From: a virus
Reading direction: 5' to 3' (one strand)
Virus record (IMG/VR): IMGVR_UViG_3300035181_000319
Span: 1-27,352 of that record
Length of the DNA: 27,352 nucleotides
Position numbers and translations under genes: made by a program. Of the stretch, positions 7,833 to 19,262 are shown piece by piece. Positions within the stretch are counted from its first letter, which is position 1; each line of letters opens with the position of its first letter. Under the pieces are notes generated by a model. That model worked only from the letters and a program-made list of their open reading frames with translations. It was not told the origin of the DNA and did not search any database.

Positions 7833-9362
7833 TTACTCCTCGGGGGTCTGTGGTTCCTCTGGCAGGGCGCCAAATTCGACGGGGCCCACCGCCTCGGTGG
7901 CCTTCTTCGCATCGCCCTTGATGAAAACCAGGACATTCTGGTGGACTTTGCAGAGCTTGCGGCTGGATTCGAAGCTCCGGCCGGCCCGGATGGCGGCGCT
8001 GCCCACGGCGTTGACCAGGATGCCCTCGTTGTAGAAGGCGGCCCCCGCCTGCTCGAACATGCCAATCGTGTGGGGGACGAAGCTGCGGTAGTTGCCCTTC
8101 TTGTCCCGGACATCGCCCACTACCCAGACGATGAAGGCGTTGGGCTTAAGCCTGGCCACGGCCTTCTGGATGATGTCGTTGTAGAGGCGCAGGAACTCCG
8201 GGTATTCCTTGTTGCTGATGTCGGCCGGGTCGTCGCTGTAGACCTCCAGGTCCGCGTAGGGCGGGCAGCTTAGGATCATGTCGGCCTGGAAGTCATCGGG
8301 CAGCACCTGGTCCATCAGCAGGCTGTCGGTGCAGATCCACTCCGGTTTCGGGAAACCCTTGCCGTGGAAGATTTCGTTGGCCTGATGGCGGTTGGCGTCC
8401 ACCTGCTCCTGCCGAAGATCAAGGCCCATGTAGCGGCGGCCCAGCAGCCCGGCGACGACACCACGGACGCTGCCCCCGGCGAATGGGTCCAGAACCAGGC
8501 CAGAGGGAGGGCAGAACCAGCGGTAGGCCAGTTCACACAGCACGGGGTCAAAGATGCTGGTTCCGCTGCCCGACTCCAGGATCTTGGCGGAAACGGGGTC
8601 AAGATCTTCAATGGCCCGATTCCCGGCCACATAGGTCAGGCGGCCCGTCACAGTTGCGGGCGCGGCCCCATGGCGTGGGCTGGACCCGCCCGCGTATTCC
8701 ATTGCCTTTGCCTTGGCCGCCTCCCGCTTCGTCTTGTCTGGCTGCAGCAGCGTGTCGCTCTTAAGCAGGTTCTCGCCCCGCCCCACCTCGGACTTGATGC
8801 CAAAGGTCATCCACGCACGCTTCCGGTCCTGCCAGTAGCCCTGTCGGCTGTCGAGGATGCTGAAGGGGGGCACACCGAAGCGCTCGGCCAGGGTCGCGGA
8901 GGCTGCGCCCTTGTCCGGCCCCGCCCCACCATCGGGCTCCTTCCCGGCCAGTTCGTCCAACAGGGCCTGTATCCCGGCGTCCTGGGTTTCGACATCGGCC
9001 AGAAGCTGGTCCAGGATGGCTTGGTCTCGGGTGGCCAGTTCGGTGATCGGGTCCAGGACGGCGAGGGCCAGGCGCTCCTCCTCCGGGGTGAGTTCCACGA
9101 TGGTAGCCGGGATGGTCGGCAGGCCCTGGCGCATGGCCTCCTCCACTCGGGCGTGCCCGTCCAGCACATGGCCCGTGGTCTTGTTCACGATGATGGTCTT
9201 CAGCCAACCAAGCTCCTTCATGCTCCCCCGCAGGGCGTCCATCTGGGTGCCAGGGTGGCGGCGGAAGTTAAGCGGGTTCGCCAGCAGGTCATCTGGCTTC
9301 ACATCGCCATGCCCCACGATGCGGGACTTGATCAGGGCGGCGGCGTGTTCGGGTTTTGCCAC
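7833..9362 (-). CDS. ParB-like domain fused to DNA methyltransferase
   Basis: A 509-residue protein if started at GTG 9362, which has AAAGGAGG seven bases upstream; a GTG at 9383 lies upstream of that site and is less likely. Residues about 15-110 are a ParB/Srx N-terminal domain with VLDGHARVEEAMRQG. A linker follows. The methyltransferase domain has the SAM-binding motif LVLDPFAGGSVRG (about 289-301) and then the catalytic-loop motif ILSCPPYADLE (about 363-373). SAM motif before catalytic motif is the alpha/gamma-type order. The motif IV core is SCPPY rather than the usual D/N/S-PP-Y. It probably modifies phage DNA amino groups, perhaps N4-cytosine or N6-adenine. It precedes the terminase genes, as in many phages. 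Confidence 0.85.
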   Translation of the reverse strand: MAKPEHAAALIKSRIVGHGDVKPDDLLANPLNFRRHPGTQMDALRGSMKELGWLKTIIVNKTTGHVLDGHARVEEAMRQGLPTIPATIVELTPEEERLALAVLDPITELATRDQAILDQLLADVETQDAGIQALLDELAGKEPDGGAGPDKGAASATLAERFGVPPFSILDSRQGYWQDRKRAWMTFGIKSEVGRGENLLKSDTLLQPDKTKREAAKAKAMEYAGGSSPRHGAAPATVTGRLTYVAGNRAIEDLDPVSAKILESGSGTSIFDPVLCELAYRWFCPPSGLVLDPFAGGSVRGVVAGLLGRRYMGLDLRQEQVDANRHQANEIFHGKGFPKPEWICTDSLLMDQVLPDDFQADMILSCPPYADLEVYSDDPADISNKEYPEFLRLYNDIIQKAVARLKPNAFIVWVVGDVRDKKGNYRSFVPHTIGMFEQAGAAFYNEGILVNAVGSAAIRAGRSFESSRKLCKVHQNVLVFIKGDAKKATEAVGPVEFGALPEEPQTPEE

Positions 9363-9404
9363 GGTCTGCCTCCTTTTGGGCACAGGATAGCAGGTTGGGG
9401 CGCG

Positions 9405-9954: not shown

Positions 9955-10668
9955 TTAGGATGCATCTCCATCAATGTCGAAAAGGCTTTGATTGTGTGTT
10001 CCACTCTTGATTCGCTTGCATGCCAGATCAAAAAAACTTCCATCCATCTCCACTCCAATAAATCGGCGGTCAGATGCCAGGGCTGCAACTCCAGTGGTCC
10101 CGCTTCCCATGAAGAGATCCATCACCACATCCCCAGGCTTTGTGGAGTTGCGAATAAGGAAATCCATTAAGGCAACCGGCTTTTCTGCTGGGTGTCCATT
10201 GGGCTTTGTTGATGACCATTTGAAAGACTGTACGTCTGGAATCCCGCGATCTGGGATAGCAAAATCTTCCCCAGCGAACAACGCCACCAGTTCAAAAGAT
10301 GGGCGCAAGCCCTTCTGCCCTCCTGGTCCAATCCATTGCTTGTCCCATACCAAAAGACTTTCTATCGACCAATCGACATCGCAGGCTGCTTTCTGGAACG
10401 TCACCAATGACCGCCAATTCAAGCAAGTCCACATGCACCCGTCAGGCGTCAGTTTCTCTCGGACGCGCCGGAACCATTCCGCGTACCAAAAAGCGGAATT
10501 ACATAGATCACCCCAAGGGTTCAGTTTCCCCTTACCGTCCGATTTCGTATTGATCCCATAGGGCGGGTCCGTGACGACAGCATTGACCGAACATGCCGGA
10601 ATCTGGCTCAGAACCTCCAAACAGTCGGCATGGTATAAAGTGGCGTTTCCAATTTCTAGGCGATTCAA
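9955..10668 (-). CDS. Site-specific DNA methyltransferase (DPPY type)
   Basis: About 237 residues. The catalytic motif AVVTDPPYGI is near residue 35-44 and the SAM-binding motif DLFMGSGTTGVAAL near 193-206, with HPAEKPVALM just before it. Catalytic before SAM motif is the beta-type order of N6-adenine or N4-cytosine methylases. An in-frame ATG at 10683 is possible, but TTG at 10668 has AGGAGA at good spacing and gives the usual family start (MNRLEIGNATLYHADC). Base composition is clearly more AT-rich than the flanking genes, suggesting recent acquisition. No cognate restriction enzyme is adjacent, so protection of phage DNA from host restriction is the likely role (inference). Confidence 0.92.
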   Translation of the reverse strand: MNRLEIGNATLYHADCLEVLSQIPACSVNAVVTDPPYGINTKSDGKGKLNPWGDLCNSAFWYAEWFRRVREKLTPDGCMWTCLNWRSLVTFQKAACDVDWSIESLLVWDKQWIGPGGQKGLRPSFELVALFAGEDFAIPDRGIPDVQSFKWSSTKPNGHPAEKPVALMDFLIRNSTKPGDVVMDLFMGSGTTGVAALASDRRFIGVEMDGSFFDLACKRIKSGTHNQSLFDIDGDAS

Positions 10669-10724
10669 ATGCCGTCTCCTCATTTGTGGGGCATCCTACA
10701 TCAATCGAACGCATTCTGCGCCGG

Positions 10725-10775
10725 TTATCTTCGGACCCTACCTCTGGTGCGTTCTGGTTCGTTCTGGTTCGTCAT
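10725..10775 (-). CDS. Possible 16-aa micro-ORF with strong ribosome site
   Basis: It reads MTNQNEPERTRGRVRR. Its start context, CCATCTGGAGGAACCATG, is identical over 18 bases to the one at 11554-11571, which precedes another small gene. The coding part overlaps a degenerate 10-bp tandem repeat (10741-10780). It may be a remnant of a gene displaced by the methyltransferase, a leader peptide, or chance. Confidence 0.3.
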   Translation of the reverse strand: MTNQNEPERTRGRVRR

Positions 10776-10794
10776 GGTTCCTCCAGATGGACAG

Positions 10795-10986
10795 TTACGG
10801 TTTCGGTGCGTATTCGATGAAGAACGGGCAGTAGAACGGCGGTGCTGTGGGGCTCAGGTCGGCAAAGATGAGGGGTCCAAGCCCCCTGCCATCGTCTGCC
10901 TCACAGTCCATGAAACGGGCGCAGGTATCGCGCTTGCCGCAGGTCGTTCCGATGCACCGGGAAACATCACGGGGAAGCTGGCTCAT
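10795..10986 (-). CDS. Small Cys-rich protein, 63 aa
   Basis: It starts MSQLPRDVSRCIGTTCGKRD and contains four cysteines close together (C-x4-C-x5-C-x5-C) in the first third, then a single Cys in PPFYCPFF near the end, which suggests a small metal-binding fold. ATG 10986 overlaps the stop of the upstream gene as ATGA and has GAGGAAGG before it, so it is preferred over a start at 11013. No homologue is recognised. It belongs to the run of small early genes. Confidence 0.65.
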   Translation of the reverse strand: MSQLPRDVSRCIGTTCGKRDTCARFMDCEADDGRGLGPLIFADLSPTAPPFYCPFFIEYAPKP

Positions 10987-11213
10987 GCCTTCCTCGCCGC
11001 CAGTTCCTTGCAATACTCGATCAGTTCGTCCTGCATCCGTTTCCCGTTGTCGCCAAGGGCAAACCTGACACGGGAGAGCAGATCGAAGGCGCTGATGTTG
11101 TCCTTCCTGGCTTGTTCCAGGTCATCCCGCAGGGAATCCAGGGCGGGACGCCACACGGACTCGGGGGCACCACAGACCAGCAGGCATTGTTCGAGGATTG
11201 AAAGGTCAGTCAT
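10983..11213 (-). CDS. Small helical early protein, 76 aa
   Basis: It begins MTDLSILEQCLLVCGAPESV and is predicted mostly helical, with a charged middle (LRDDLEQARKDN) and a KELAARKA end. ATG 11213 follows CGAGGAACCA, a ribosome site resembling those of neighbouring small genes; a longer frame from 11273 lacks such a site. The stop overlaps the next gene (ATGA). No domain is recognised. Confidence 0.65.
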   Translation of the reverse strand: MTDLSILEQCLLVCGAPESVWRPALDSLRDDLEQARKDNISAFDLLSRVRFALGDNGKRMQDELIEYCKELAARKA

Positions 11214-11235
11214 TGGTTCCTCGCTCTGGACAGGC

Positions 11236-11403
11236 TCAGTTGAAATAGAAGCGACAGCCCGTGCAGGCGGCATTGATGGGCTTTGCCCGATGGATGCAGA
11301 CCACGCAGGGGAAGTGCAGGTTGAACGAGTGGAGGTCGAACCTGAACCGATCCTCGTTCTGAGGCTGGGCTGTGGCTTCTTTGGTTTCGTCAGCGAGGCT
11401 CAT
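11236..11403 (-). CDS. Small zinc-ribbon-like protein, 55 aa
   Basis: It begins MSLADETKEATAQPQNEDRF and ends with two Cys pairs (PCVVCIHRAKPINAACTGCRFYFN), the pattern of a small zinc ribbon. ATG 11403 has AGGAG upstream; an in-frame TTG at 11418 lies above that site and is less likely. It may bind nucleic acid or a host protein, but no family is recognised. Confidence 0.65.
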   Translation of the reverse strand: MSLADETKEATAQPQNEDRFRFDLHSFNLHFPCVVCIHRAKPINAACTGCRFYFN

Positions 11404-11420
11404 AAGGCTCCTAGACAAGA

Positions 11421-11556
11421 TCAGGCTTGCGCCTGAGTGGACTCGGGGGCGTGTTCCTGGATTGCCTCAATCAGGCCGAAGGTCGGGATTTCGTTCGCCT
11501 CGCTTGTTCGCTTCCTCCATCCTTCGTGCGGTCATGGCTTCGGATTCCATTCGCAT
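11421..11556 (-). pseudogene. Small gene apparently split by a +1 frameshift
   Basis: ATG 11556 has the strong site CTGGAGGAACC and opens MRMESEAMTARRMEEANKRG, but this frame stops at 11467 after 29 residues. The +1 frame continues as EANEIPTFGLIEAIQEHAPE and ends at 11421. That places its stop 17 bases before the next start with its ribosome site, which is the spacing seen elsewhere in this operon. A one-base insertion around 11490-11515, a sequencing error or a programmed shift would explain it. The joined product would be about 44 residues. The function is unknown. Confidence 0.5.
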
Positions 11557-13536: not shown

Positions 13537-13722
13537 TCACTTCTTCACCTGCCGACGGCGCTTCTCGGTCAGGGCGTCATTCACCTGATCCAAATATTTC
13601 GCCTCGGCGTCCTCGTTCCCAATGGACCTCATGGACTTCGCGGATTCTTGCGCGTCCATGATGAGGAAGGCCAATTCGGCGTCCGTCTTGCCGGCGTAGC
13701 GGGTTGGGTGGGTGTTCTTCAT
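13537..13722 (-). CDS. Small helical protein, 61 aa, first gene of the accessory operon
   Basis: It begins MKNTHPTRYAGKTDAELAFL and continues as a charged helical chain ending RRRQVKK. ATG 13722 has GAAGGAGCCCACC upstream. It is the first gene after a candidate promoter (13744-13771) with a CRP-type site above it, so it probably leads the run of small genes down to about 9515. The function is unknown. Confidence 0.7.
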   Translation of the reverse strand: MKNTHPTRYAGKTDAELAFLIMDAQESAKSMRSIGNEDAEAKYLDQVNDALTEKRRRQVKK

Positions 13723-13743: not shown

Positions 13744-13771
13744 AGTATCGGACCCGTTGACTGAGTATCAA
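13744..13771 (-). promoter_or_regulatory. Candidate promoter for the accessory early operon
   Basis: On the minus strand: -35 TTGATA (13771-13766), 16-bp spacer, -10 GATACT (13749-13744), followed by GAATC. The ACTGAA piece and the 16-bp spacer are shared with the promoters at 19145 and 15811. The -35 lies in an imperfect palindrome, GTTGA-N7-TCAAC (13756-13772), which might be an operator. Confidence 0.5.
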
Positions 13772-13797
13772 CCCCCTAACTGCGTTTTTCTGCGAAG

Positions 13798-13813
13798 TGT
13801 GATCTCTGTCACA
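13798..13813. promoter_or_regulatory. CRP-type site TGTGA-N6-TCACA
   Basis: TGTGATCTCTGTCACA matches both half-sites of the CRP consensus and lies about 61.5 bp upstream of the 3' end of the candidate -10 at 13744. It overlaps the last codons of the gene ending at 13809. A near copy is at 19200-19215. Confidence 0.55.
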
Positions 13814-14078
13814 CCTTTTTGGGCTCCAGGAAGCATCCCTTCCCTTCCAGGTGGGGGCGGATATGCACCCGAAACTGCTCGGGGATATTCGGCCCCCAGC
13901 CGGGCGCGAACACGCATTTGCAGGACGGGCAGACATAACCCCAGTAGCCGGTGCGGAACTGCCGGTAATAGTGGACCAGATCGGGTGGGACCTGGAAGTC
14001 ATCCTCCACCATGTTGGGAGGATTCCAACCGTATGCCTCGGGCTCATCCAGCGGGCGTGTAATCGGGGAGTGGATCAC
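13809..14078 (-). CDS. Small zinc-finger-like protein, 89 aa
   Basis: It begins MIHSPITRPLDEPEAYGWNP, and the second half has YVCPSCKCVFAPGWG followed by FRVHIRPHLEGKGC. The CxxC, later histidines and the final Cys suggest a zinc finger. GTG 14078 overlaps the helicase-loader stop (GTGA) with AGAGGTT upstream. A competing frame at 13742-14047 lacks any such motif and is rejected. It may be an accessory to the replication genes with which it is co-transcribed. Confidence 0.7.
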   Translation of the reverse strand: MIHSPITRPLDEPEAYGWNPPNMVEDDFQVPPDLVHYYRQFRTGYWGYVCPSCKCVFAPGWGPNIPEQFRVHIRPHLEGKGCFLEPKKV

Positions 14079-14905
14079 TTGAACCTCTGATCCTTCAGGC
14101 CGGTCACGATGACCAGCGGGTTGTCGCCGCAGAGGCGGCTGACGAGTCGGGCGCCGTAGAACTCGATCATGCCGCCCATGTCCAGGTTGGTGGTGTAGAA
14201 GGTCGGCGCCTCCCGGCGGTAACGCTCATCGACCACGACATCCAGTTGGGAGGCGGCGAAGTCCTCCACGTAGGAGCCCTTGATGCGCTCCGATCCGAGG
14301 TCGTCCAGGAATAGGATGTCGGCCTGGATCATGTCGCCCACGGTGGTATCCACGAAACCCTCAACGGTTGCCCTAGACCTGAGGAGAGCCACGGCAGACG
14401 GCCAGGATCGCCAGCGGAGCCCGGCGGCCCCTGGGCAGGGGTTGGGTTCCCCGCCATCGTTCACGCGGGCCACTTCCCGCGCCTGTAAGTGCGCTCGGAG
14501 GATCGCGGCCATCGCGGAGGTCTTGCCGGCGCCCGTGCCCTCGCCACCGATGCCGAAGCCCGCTTTGGGCGGCTTACCCTCCAACATGGACTTGACGGCC
14601 TCGATCGGGAGCGCCCGCTTGATCTCCACCGGGATCTTCACGACTTCTGACCTGGCCTCGCGGGGACTCATGCCGGCATCCATGCAGACGCCCCAGCTCC
14701 AGGCGCCGATCTTCTCCAGGTGTTCAGCCTTGCGCTTCGCCTGCCATGCTTGTTCCTGGCAGTAGCCGCAGACCAGCTCACCAGGGTTCTTCCTGTCCGG
14801 CCCCATCGGGCCCTTGCATACCGGGCAGGGTGTGGCCTCCGGCGTCACTGAGCTGGGCCTTGAGGGCGGCATCGCGCCTAGCGTGGCGATGGGTCGCAGA
14901 TCCAT
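14075..14905 (-). CDS. DnaC/IstB-like replicative helicase loader ATPase
   Basis: A 276-residue protein. Near residues 27-50 two Cys pairs (CPVC...CGYC) form a zinc ribbon. The AAA+ domain has Walker A GGEGTGAGKTSA (about 120-131) and Walker B ADILFLDDLGSE (about 195-206), then a sensor-type FYTTNLDMGG (about 237-246) and a GARLVSRL arginine-finger segment (about 252-259). DnaC-type loaders place the replicative helicase on origin DNA. ATG 14905 follows AAGGAG; a longer frame from 14953 is less likely. The gene overlaps the 3' end of the replication protein upstream by 128 bases, an unusually long overlap. Its stop is coupled to the zinc-finger gene. Confidence 0.9.
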   Translation of the reverse strand: MDLRPIATLGAMPPSRPSSVTPEATPCPVCKGPMGPDRKNPGELVCGYCQEQAWQAKRKAEHLEKIGAWSWGVCMDAGMSPREARSEVVKIPVEIKRALPIEAVKSMLEGKPPKAGFGIGGEGTGAGKTSAMAAILRAHLQAREVARVNDGGEPNPCPGAAGLRWRSWPSAVALLRSRATVEGFVDTTVGDMIQADILFLDDLGSERIKGSYVEDFAASQLDVVVDERYRREAPTFYTTNLDMGGMIEFYGARLVSRLCGDNPLVIVTGLKDQRFK

Positions 14906-15680
14906 TTTGGGCTCCTTGGTTGGGGGTGGTTGGTTTCGCGCTATCCTGGGCACGGCTTAGCCAGTTGGTGGTGAATCTCCCCATGCCGACGTAGGTTTTC
15001 CCTCGCTTGGGGTTCTGCTCCAGCCATAACCTCATTCGCTTAGCCTCAGCCAGTGGGTCAAGGCCTGGAAAGGCATCTTTCCAGTCGTCCAGAAGGGATT
15101 GGGTCACGGGCCACTCCTTCATCCCCTTGCCAACGCATGGAAGGACCACTACCGCCGGGCCGGATGGCGGCTTGGCCGCCTCCGGGCATGTAGTTCTCTT
15201 TTGGTCTTGGTCTTGGTCTTTGTCTTTGTCTTGGTCTTGGTCTTGGTCTTGGTAGGGCATCGCTCGGGCATCCCCATGGGCATCCCCATGGGCATCACAT
15301 TCATCCTGTTTAGGCCATCGAGCGGCTCCACCTCGGGCGGCCTTGAACCGTTGGGTCTCATAGAACCCCATCACCTGGTCCCACTCCCTGACCAAGTAGG
15401 GGATGCCGGTCCTCCCCGGCAGGCCGGACACCGGCTCCAGCTTCGGCCACTTCGCCAGCAGGTCATCCAGCTCATCCGGGGTGCAGCGGGCCAGCCATGC
15501 CAGCTTCCGGCGGTCATCGGGTAGGGTTCCGCCCTTGGCCCACTGGTGGAGCATGAGAAGGAAAACAGAGCCCCATTCCTCACGGCTCAGGTTCTCGTAG
15601 TCCTCATCCATGAGCATATGCCTTGGGAAGACCCGGAAATAATCGGCCCGCTCAGGTCTGTCCATCTTGCATCGTGTCAT
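14778..15680 (-). CDS. DUF1376-type phage replication (replisome organiser) protein
   Basis: About 300 residues. The N-terminal domain (ADYFRVFPRHMLMDEDYENL, then SREEWGSVFLLMLHQWAKGG and LPDDRRKLAWLARC) has the spacing of DUF1376 winged-helix proteins, which act in phage replication initiation. A low-complexity linker of alternating Q/K and D follows near residues 143-160, preceded by DAHGDAHGDA. The C-terminal part (MKEWPVTQSLLDDWKDAFPG ... KTYVGMGRFTTNWLSRA) resembles the distal domain of such initiators. ATG 15680 has CGGAG before it; an ATG five codons later is possible. It pairs with the helicase loader downstream, the usual phage arrangement. A candidate promoter lies at 15811-15838. 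Confidence 0.8.
   Translation of the reverse strand: MTRCKMDRPERADYFRVFPRHMLMDEDYENLSREEWGSVFLLMLHQWAKGGTLPDDRRKLAWLARCTPDELDDLLAKWPKLEPVSGLPGRTGIPYLVREWDQVMGFYETQRFKAARGGAARWPKQDECDAHGDAHGDARAMPYQDQDQDQDKDKDQDQDQKRTTCPEAAKPPSGPAVVVLPCVGKGMKEWPVTQSLLDDWKDAFPGLDPLAEAKRMRLWLEQNPKRGKTYVGMGRFTTNWLSRAQDSAKPTTPNQGAQNGSATHRHARRDAALKAQLSDAGGHTLPGMQGPDGAGQEEPW
15199..15252 (-). repeat. Hexamer microsatellite encoding a QD/KD linker
   Basis: About nine copies of a six-base unit (GGTCTT on the plus strand, two copies reading TGTCTT) run in tandem and encode alternating Gln-Asp and Lys-Asp in the replication protein. The unit length keeps the frame, so slippage would change linker length only. A second short tandem repeat (CATCCCCATGGG, about 15268-15298) encodes DAHGDAHGDA next to it. 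Confidence 0.85.
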
Positions 15681-16803: not shown

Positions 16804-17853
16804 TCAGTCGAGAGGCAACCCTTCCGGGCTCCCTGCGGGCGTAGCGTCCTGCTCGGGCTCGGGCGGGGCGGCGGGAGCCGGCGCCTGGGTGGCGGCCTTC
16901 AGGGCATCCTTGAGCCCGCCATTGCCCGACTTGGTGGCGGGCCGTTTCTCATCCTGCGTAGTCTCCCCGTCGCGGATGGTGGAGTAGAGCGCCTGGAGGT
17001 CAGCCAGTCCCTTGGGGATGAGAACGTTGCCCTTGGGCCCTTCCGGCTGGGCACCTTCTGTTGGGTCCATGCCGAGGGCTCCGGCGATCTGGTGGTCCAG
17101 TTCGTCCAGGGCGTCAATGACCACCTCCCCAGGCAGGGAGGGGAAGCCATCGGCCTTGTTGTCCACCTCCAGGGCCTTGGCAAGCTCCACGGAGAGGGGG
17201 AGGTATTTGGTCAGGCGCTTGATGACGGTCTTCTTCGCCATCTCGTTCCAATCGGTGACCCATGGGCCACTCTGTCCAGCGCGGGAGCGGGAGCGGATGC
17301 CATCTACCGCCTTGCGGCTCATTACCTCGAACTGTGTGGAGCCGTCCTTGAGTTTCGCCACGGCGTAGACCCACTTCACGGGCGCGTTCTCATCGGCGTC
17401 CAGGTTCGGGCGGTGCATGAGGAGGGGGTCAGAGCCCAACTGGTAGGTGAACTCATCGCCGTCCTTCACCACGGCGGCGAAGATCATGGCGATTTCGCCC
17501 GTGCGGCGGGCCAGGGAGATGAGGCCCCGGTAGCCGGGGATGCCCTGCGCCTCGTAGTTCCCGGTCTTGTTGTTCTTGAACGGCACCAAGTAGTACTCGC
17601 CCAGCGCGGAGCCCACCTCCAAGCCAAGCTCGGCACCCTGCATCACCGCCTTGACCACGGAGGCCGGGGTGCATTTCAGGATGAGCGGGTTGCGGCTGGC
17701 GGCGTTGATGGCGACCTTCATCAGGCGGTCAGCGGTCAGGTGGCGCGGGAGGAGCGCGGCGAGGGAGCCCTTGCGGCTCTCCAGAAGCTCCTGGAGTTGG
17801 TGGATGGGGCTCTTGGCCCTGGTGGCGGGGGGCATGGTTTCGGCCATGGTCAT
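16804..17853 (-). CDS. recT: RecT-family ssDNA-annealing recombinase
   Basis: A 349-residue protein. Residues about 35-250 form the RecT domain: LTADRLMKVAINAASRNPLI, AVMQGAELGLEVGSALGEYY, LVPFKN, IPGYRGLISLARRTGEI, and WVTDWNEMAKKTVIKRLTKY are typical blocks. The C-terminal third is low-complexity (Pro/Ala-rich). RecT binds the single-stranded tails made by the partner exonuclease and anneals them to complementary strands. ATG 17853 has AAAGGAGA upstream and overlaps the exonuclease stop (ATGA), so the two are co-translated, as expected for a two-component recombination system. Confidence 0.93.
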   Translation of the reverse strand: MTMAETMPPATRAKSPIHQLQELLESRKGSLAALLPRHLTADRLMKVAINAASRNPLILKCTPASVVKAVMQGAELGLEVGSALGEYYLVPFKNNKTGNYEAQGIPGYRGLISLARRTGEIAMIFAAVVKDGDEFTYQLGSDPLLMHRPNLDADENAPVKWVYAVAKLKDGSTQFEVMSRKAVDGIRSRSRAGQSGPWVTDWNEMAKKTVIKRLTKYLPLSVELAKALEVDNKADGFPSLPGEVVIDALDELDHQIAGALGMDPTEGAQPEGPKGNVLIPKGLADLQALYSTIRDGETTQDEKRPATKSGNGGLKDALKAATQAPAPAAPPEPEQDATPAGSPEGLPLD

Positions 17854-18893
17854 TCTCCTTTGAAGTTGAAGCGGAAGATGCGGTAGCCGTTGCCAGCCGC
17901 CGTGAACTCGGGGATGAGGCGCTCGAGGTCTTTTTCGTGGATGTGCTTGCGGGCCAGTTCCTCCCAGCGGGTGGTGACGCGCCCCTTTGTTTGATTCCAG
18001 GTGGCGATACCCTTGAGGCCGGAGGCTTCCCCGATGGCTTGCTTCAGGCGGTTCTCGATGGCCTTCTGCTCCTCCTCCATGGCCGCCATGGTGGTGCGGA
18101 TTTCAAAGAGGCGCTTCGCCTCCTCCAGTTGCTCAGGGGTGGGGTCTTTGACCACCTTGGTGGCTTGCGCCATCTTCCCCAGGTAGTGGCCCCAATCATC
18201 GGAGCCGTCCACTTCGGGCGGGATGTCCGCGATCACATGGTTGAGCCAGAAACTCTCGGCGGCCTCCTTGAAGAAGGCGTGAAGCTCCAGGTCGGCCTCG
18301 ACCTCATAGCACCGGAACTTCTGGCCCCGTTCGAGGACGGCGAGGTCCGCGTAGGGCGCGGTGTCCACCATCATCTGCACATGGAGTTGGACAAGGTAGC
18401 CCTTGGTGATCTGATCGGTCCCCGGCTCTCCCCAGCCCTTTGAGGGATCGCAGTAACCCACATTCTTGGCGTCCACCGGGCGGTGGTCACCCCCTGCGCG
18501 GCGGGCATCGAAGGAGGCGCCGAGGATGTCGGAACCCGGCACCTTGCGGAAGTCATAGGGGTCAGCGCGGACGATTTCGTGCCCCGTGCGCTTGGCGTAG
18601 ACCCGGAGGATGGTCTCCTCCAGTTCGAGGCCCATCTCCATCTCCTCGCTCATCACGAAGTCCTCATCCATGAGGGCTCCAGTCTTGGCAAGCCACACGC
18701 TCATCGGGCCGCCCCAGGATTTCGGGGCGAGGCCGAGGATCTTGGCGAGGTCGGTGGCACCGATGGCCTTCCGGCGATCCTCCAGCCATCTGTTGCGGCG
18801 CTGTTCCATGGTCTCCTCGGTCGGGGCCTCCATGGCGCCGAACACGGAGGTCGTGGCGGATGCCGTGGCCTTCATCATCAGTTCATCGCTCAT
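17850..18893 (-). CDS. YqaJ-family recombination exonuclease
   Basis: A 347-residue protein. The nuclease core includes RRKAIGATDLAKILGL (about 40-55), W..KTG (about 67-72), MEMGLELEETILRVYAKRTG (about 85-104), ILGASFDARRAGGDHRPVDAKNV (about 123-144, split here by the catalytic Asp and the DAK motif) and YLVQLHVQMMV (about 166-176). This is the YqaJ/lambda-exonuclease-like arrangement that resects 5' ends. The C-terminal part has a helical stretch (EEEQKAIENRLKQAIGEASG) typical of YqaJ proteins. It overlaps the Cro-like gene upstream and recT downstream by four bases each. The catalytic residues appear intact. Confidence 0.92.
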   Translation of the reverse strand: MSDELMMKATASATTSVFGAMEAPTEETMEQRRNRWLEDRRKAIGATDLAKILGLAPKSWGGPMSVWLAKTGALMDEDFVMSEEMEMGLELEETILRVYAKRTGHEIVRADPYDFRKVPGSDILGASFDARRAGGDHRPVDAKNVGYCDPSKGWGEPGTDQITKGYLVQLHVQMMVDTAPYADLAVLERGQKFRCYEVEADLELHAFFKEAAESFWLNHVIADIPPEVDGSDDWGHYLGKMAQATKVVKDPTPEQLEEAKRLFEIRTTMAAMEEEQKAIENRLKQAIGEASGLKGIATWNQTKGRVTTRWEELARKHIHEKDLERLIPEFTAAGNGYRIFRFNFKGE

Positions 18894-19096
18894 CGCGCCA
18901 CCTTCTTCAGATCGTTGGGCTTCAGCTTGCCCTTCGCCAGTTTGAGGATTTCGGCGGCGTGGTCCAGCGTTGGCTGGGTCCGCCCCTTCTTCCAGTTGGT
19001 CACGGCGCTTGGATCTACGCCGAGGCGCCGGGCGAGAGCCCGCACCCCGTATGCCTTAATCCAGGCTCCAAACTTGTTGAGTGTGGGTTGGTCCAT
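18890..19096 (-). CDS. Cro/C1-type HTH regulator
   Basis: A 68-residue protein beginning MDQPTLNKFGAWIKAYGVRA, with a helix-turn-helix ALARRLGVDPSAVTNWKKGR (about 20-39) and a basic end (KLKPNDLKKVAR). ATG 19096 has GGAG seven bases upstream and is preferred over ATGs at 19108 and 19123. Its size and its place as the first gene of the leftward early operon resemble lambda Cro. It is coupled to the exonuclease by ATGA. No divergent CI-type gene is visible, so it may be a self-repressor rather than half of a lysis-lysogeny switch. Confidence 0.85.
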   Translation of the reverse strand: MDQPTLNKFGAWIKAYGVRALARRLGVDPSAVTNWKKGRTQPTLDHAAEILKLAKGKLKPNDLKKVAR

Positions 19097-19144
19097 TTCT
19101 GACTCCATGTTGGCGGCCAGCATTGGCCGCTAGTCCATGCTTTC

Positions 19145-19172
19145 AGTTTAGACATTGTGGACCAAGGCGCAA
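19145..19172 (-). promoter_or_regulatory. Candidate early promoter before the Cro-like gene
   Basis: On the minus strand: -35 TTGCGC (19172-19167), 16-bp spacer, -10 TAAACT (19150-19145), followed by GAAAGC. The CTAAACTGAAA segment and spacer length match the candidate at 15811-15838. A short palindrome, TTGAT-C-ATCAA (19180-19190), just upstream might bind the Cro-like protein. Confidence 0.55.
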
Positions 19173-19199
19173 CACTTTGTTGATCATCAATCCATGAAT

Positions 19200-19230: not shown

Positions 19231-19262
19231 AAGAAAACGCCCGGCCCACAACGAGCCGGGCG
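19231..19262 (-). terminator. Rho-independent terminator of the late operon
   Basis: CGCCCGGC (19238-19245) and GCCGGGCG (19255-19262) form a perfect 8-bp stem with a nine-base loop. On the minus strand it is followed by TTTTCTT (19237-19231). It lies just after the last lysis-region gene and before the early promoter. The remaining 19263-19323 bases show no further signal. Confidence 0.85.

Follow-up and report, generated by a model that had tools for sequence, protein, structure and literature searches.

Phages that co-opt host regulators are already known, the regulators including LexA, Spo0A, CtrA and, as a repressor of T1 promoters, CRP. The CRP repression in T1 is the nearest known case to the locus described here: in vitro, pir is under direct repression by cAMP-CRP, which inhibits the dam and recE promoters as well, and phage development is coupled to sugar uptake (PMC6737242). 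T1 is alike in that host CRP controls promoters of the phage, a recE promoter among them, and different in that CRP represses there and that the main text describes no CRP binding site (PMC6737242); here, by contrast, perfect palindromes lie at activator positions of a pair of early promoters, and the phage family is GC-rich and apparently unrelated.

In phages of Alphaproteobacteria, CtrA-binding sites are concentrated in promoters, an arrangement linked to 'lytic deferment' that was found by sequence and then tested (PMC9437464). The likeness lies in sites for a host master regulator in phage promoters, with a proposed timing of lytic development by host state, but the regulator and motif are others, and many sites occupy a large intergenic region there versus one per early promoter here (PMC9437464). 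GIL01 is controlled by LexA (PMC4551915) and phi29 carries Spo0A sites (as cited in PMC9437464). These two phages also use a host transcription factor for a developmental decision, but the factors are repressors that answer DNA damage in one case and sporulation in the other; the one proposed here is an activator of the catabolite/cyclic-nucleotide kind. Searches of the open-access literature turned up no other phage in which CRP sites are known to activate early promoters. A pair of early promoters that both have CRP-type sites in activator geometry, kept throughout a clade, appears to be a new variation on this theme.

Two CRP-type palindromes and their promoters

We analysed a phage contig from IMG/VR over its whole length of 27,352 bp (the window), in which nearly all plausible genes point leftward. 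Both palindromes lie upstream of leftward promoters, P1 and P2, among the following features:

19239..19256, minus strand: terminator-like (intrinsic) hairpin that ends the upstream leftward late/tail operon, just ahead of P1
19200..19215, minus strand: P1 CRP-type site; on the transcribed strand, TGTGACgaaGATCACA (read 19215-19200), TGTGACGAAGATCACA
19145..19172, minus strand: P1 core promoter, -35 TTGCGC (19172-19167), 16 bp, -10 TAAACT (19150-19145)
19113..19130, minus strand: leader palindrome GCGGCCAATGCTGGCCGC, between the predicted P1 start and the HTH gene, mostly conserved in relatives
18890..19096, minus strand: HTH protein (HTH_3/Cro-like/YdaS-like), first gene of the P1 operon
17850..18893, minus strand: RecE-like exonuclease (phrog_434, 1.4e-55)
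16804..17853, minus strand: RecT-like ssDNA annealing protein (phrog_148, 1.2e-77)
14075..14953, minus strand: DnaC-like helicase loader (phrog_50, 4.3e-25), early operon, upstream of P2
13798..13813, minus strand: P2 CRP-type site; on the transcribed strand, TGTGACagaGATCACA (read 13813-13798), TGTGACAGAGATCACA
13744..13771, minus strand: P2 core promoter, -35 TTGATA (13771-13766), 16 bp, -10 GATACT (13749-13744)
13537..13722, minus strand: 61-aa ORF without family match, first gene past P2
13130..13540, minus strand: 136-aa ORF without family match, P2 operon

Both palindromes are present where a sequence-only reading had placed them, with the perfect half-sites it had described, and they are the only two perfect TGTGA-N6-TCACA matches in the window. 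The expectation under an iid model is 0.0105 per window (about 0.01), and among 600 order-2 Markov simulations 11 contained one perfect site and none contained two, which bears out the earlier statement that the sequence match is unlikely by chance. Sites with up to two mismatches number 10 in the window versus 8.8 by chance (shuffled sequence), so the significance is limited to the perfect palindromes. Most of the matches listed by a broad pattern scan are expected to be chance ones. Perfect sites occur once in 1.15 Mb from 98 loci of other, unrelated phages and 13 times in 168 kb of the phage family (homologous copies included in the count), and with permuted half-sites the family sequences gave at most two matches, versus 13 for the real motif. 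On the simulations and the background of unrelated phages, a chance origin of the paired palindromes was rejected.

The distance from palindrome centre to the 3' end of the -10, put at about 62 bp by the same reading, measures 62.5 bp at P1 (from 19145; 63 as an integer count) and 61.5 bp at P2 (from 13744; 62 as an integer count). Taking the predicted start to be 7 nt past the -10, the centres fall at about -69.5 (P1) and -68.5 (P2). In class-I CRP promoters, sites are found at about -61.5, at -70 to -72 or at further turns, upstream of intact -35 and -10 elements (lac is centred at -61.5 and malT at -70.5). By analogy, the P1 and P2 sites, about one helical turn above that of lac and near that of malT, would fit a class-I arrangement acting via the C-terminal domain of the alpha subunit. 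What is shared with class-I bacterial promoters is TGTGA-N6-TCACA at about -69 from a predicted start, upstream of a weak sigma-70 promoter; what differs is the setting in a phage early region, where the start is predicted only. The P1 -35 is poor (3/6 consensus matches); a poor -35 is common at activator-dependent promoters, and CRP-dependent promoters are often weak. Both palindromes lie upstream of the -35 and overlap none of the RNA polymerase elements.

A third promoter-like element, P3 (15811-15838, minus strand; TTGACG-16-TAAACTGAAA), resembles the P1 -10 region; its -10 (TAAACT) equals that of P1 and its -35 (TTGACG) is better. P3 has a counterpart with -10 TAGACT in the relative G017, and no CRP-like site was found at P3 (15838-15811) in the window. 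An inverted repeat, GTTGA-N7-TCAAC, overlaps the P2 -35 (13756-13772, minus strand), recurs in G017 at 31781 and is nearly intact in the related locus L123 (last base changed); it may serve a second regulator as its operator.

The P1 genes run leftward from the HTH/Cro-like gene through RecE, RecT and more early genes to the DnaC-like helicase loader. For the HTH gene, the better start is ATG 19096, preceded by a GGAG Shine-Dalgarno sequence, and a longer ORF extends to 19123. P2 precedes the next early operon, in which the 61-aa ORF is followed by more genes without family match, and farther downstream are terminase, portal protein and ParB/methyltransferase proteins; a GTA-like tail protein is encoded upstream of P1. 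The hairpin at 19239..19256 is conserved in relatives, and such terminator-like matches are no commoner in the window than in shuffles. The leader palindrome GCGGCCAATGCTGGCCGC is a possible autoregulatory operator or RNA hairpin. Elsewhere in the window, an ORF at 7833-9383 (minus strand) joins a ParB-like N-terminal part to a DNA-methyltransferase C-terminal part, a second methyltransferase ORF lies at 9955-10683, and a lower-GC patch at 10001-11436 (54% in 10001-11000) holds a 255-aa ORF without known family, which runs rightward against the prevailing direction.

Conservation in related phages

Relatives were collected via RecT (L123) and then via the HTH protein and terminase, with DNA identity of about 83-97%. 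As a control for bias, homologues of P1 and P2 were fetched by core-promoter patterns that leave out the palindrome; the counts include the window. The palindrome is perfect at all 12 P1 places (9 distinct versions), with a spacing of 63 bp in 12/12, and at all 6 P2 places (5 distinct versions), with a spacing of 62 bp in 5/6 and 63 bp in 1/6. Co-conservation in relatives had been set beforehand as a test of the sites, and the half-sites are kept wherever the promoter was found, at a constant spacing for P1 and at 62-63 bp for P2. In L123, for example, both sites are found at the corresponding positions, where the half-sites are intact and the N6 cores differ.

None of the 20 half-site columns varies, compared with 7 of the 12 core columns (Fisher p=2.4e-4) and 86 of the 223 columns of the remaining aligned promoter (Fisher p=1.3e-4); since the test counts columns, not evolutionary events, among closely related phages, these p-values serve as a guide. 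Selection acts on the half-sites rather than on the N6 core, although the conservation events are not fully independent, because the relatives are close (about 83-97%) and come from few sample series. In all homologues, the core starts with a pyrimidine and ends with a purine. The relatives share GTGTTGCG and TAAACTGA in the P1 core promoter, where the spacer is for the most part variable. At P2, the TGA stop of a small ORF (13809-14078) overlaps the left half of the palindrome, an overlap that may contribute to the conservation of that half. The P2 site is kept in L177/G017 though the 61-aa first gene is missing or replaced after P2.

The binding protein and other explanations

CRP consensus half-sites are TGTGA/TCACA, and the pattern TGTGA-N6-TCACA of a CRP-type (CRP/Vfr/Clp) site is found at both places and in all homologues. 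Neither a cNMP-binding (PF00027) nor a Crp-HTH (PF13545) domain was found in any of 8 records (the window and seven relatives, possibly incomplete records), and a phage-encoded CRP homologue was rejected as the binder on this result. The recognition helix of the HTH protein differs among relatives (SAVTNWKKG, SAVTHWKMG, SAVTLWKKG) and the half-sites are unchanged. With no CRP-family protein found in the phages and with sites that stay constant while the HTH helix varies, a CRP/Vfr/Clp-type host protein is favoured, on motif grounds, as the best-fitting binder of both palindromes. The proposal of a host CRP/Clp/FNR-family regulator is thus supported in part: a CRP/Clp type is favoured, and FNR is disfavoured because the FNR/Anr site is TTGAT-N4-ATCAA, with half-sites and spacing that do not fit. 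Nor is the nearby TTGATGATCAA (19180-19190) an FNR/Anr site, since its spacing is N1 rather than N4 and it is not conserved.

The alternative put forward with that proposal, that the palindromes are operators of a phage regulator such as the HTH/Cro-like P1 product, with coordinated feedback on both promoters, is disfavoured here and we consider it unlikely. It would account for an identical palindrome type at two phage promoters only and for an HTH gene immediately downstream of P1, but the half-sites equal the CRP consensus, they are constant while the recognition helix varies (not conclusive by itself), their position at about -69 is that of an activator rather than of a Cro operator, and the separate leader palindrome at P1 would suit autoregulation. 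About equally improbable is a host CRP-type protein whose binding would repress early transcription or delay it: the sites lie upstream of the -35 at class-I phase, clear of RNA polymerase elements, and the promoters are weak, a frequent trait of CRP-dependent ones, against which stand an integrase in one relative that suggests lysogeny in the clade and the precedent of T1, where cAMP-CRP acts on the pir, dam and recE promoters (PMC6737242). A bound CRP at -69 could alternatively repress or act with another factor, and activation is preferred to repression because of site position alone.

It is very improbable that the palindromes are not protein sites but hairpins that serve as intrinsic terminators for transcripts running rightward or leftward. 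CTTTTTGG does follow the P2 palindrome on the plus strand, and this palindrome is listed as a terminator-like match, but neither flank of the P1 palindrome carries a T run (on which intrinsic terminators were rejected), terminator-like matches in the window do not exceed the shuffled number, and the half-site letters are fixed around a variable core where a hairpin would permit compensatory changes.

Phage type, host and proposed early control

Genes for terminase, portal, tape measure and tail occur in G017, a nearly complete relative of 37.4 kb, from which we infer a tailed phage of siphovirus type. G017 carries two similar but not identical P1/HTH regions, one near each end (L244:1-2523 and L245:17306-19390), which may reflect either a genuine duplication or a chimaera assembled from a population. 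G000, G003, G004 and G017 gave no integrase domain; the close relative G001 encodes a tyrosine integrase with an Arm-DNA-binding domain (L256:7671-8852, equal to G001:21670-22851), which suggests that some members of the clade are temperate. A RecT search of genome contigs for the host gave two distant MAG matches only, and the best matches of RecT, TerL (phages, plasmids), portal, tail and the G001 integrase disagree (Pasteurellaceae, Brevundimonas, Paracoccus/Ruegeria); the host is probably a proteobacterium.

Presence, rarity, conservation and spacing of the sites, the promoter-like elements and the search for CRP-family proteins were computed here, and we infer from them the identity of the binding protein, activation and the physiological role. 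With a CRP-type regulator assumed in the host, a CRP/Vfr/Clp-type protein quite likely binds both palindromes and activates early transcription at P1 and P2. A dimer centred at the positions given above would, by class-I analogy, recruit RNA polymerase to the two weak sigma-70 promoters; P1 would then drive the HTH/Cro-like, RecE, RecT and replication genes, and P2 would re-initiate inside the same leftward early region and drive the following operon. Early gene expression would hence depend on the cyclic-nucleotide/catabolite state of the host, and so would infection speed or timing or, in temperate relatives, the lysis-lysogeny balance.

Since conserved CRP-type sites lie upstream of both early promoters, early phage expression is probably tied to host metabolic state. 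We propose more tentatively, as a possibility somewhat short of even, that both early promoters are wired to host CRP as an activator, such that infection proceeds only, or faster, at a high cyclic-nucleotide signal and is otherwise deferred. Short promoter fragments placed in laboratory E. coli would suffice to test the prediction, for which the natural host is not needed, and the case also suggests a general search for phages that sense metabolic state, by looking for host regulator palindromes at fixed promoter spacing. If true, the arrangement would be a metabolic counterpart of the CtrA 'lytic deferment' and a clear case, backed by comparative sequence evidence, in which the early programme of a phage is under positive control by the global catabolite regulator of its host.
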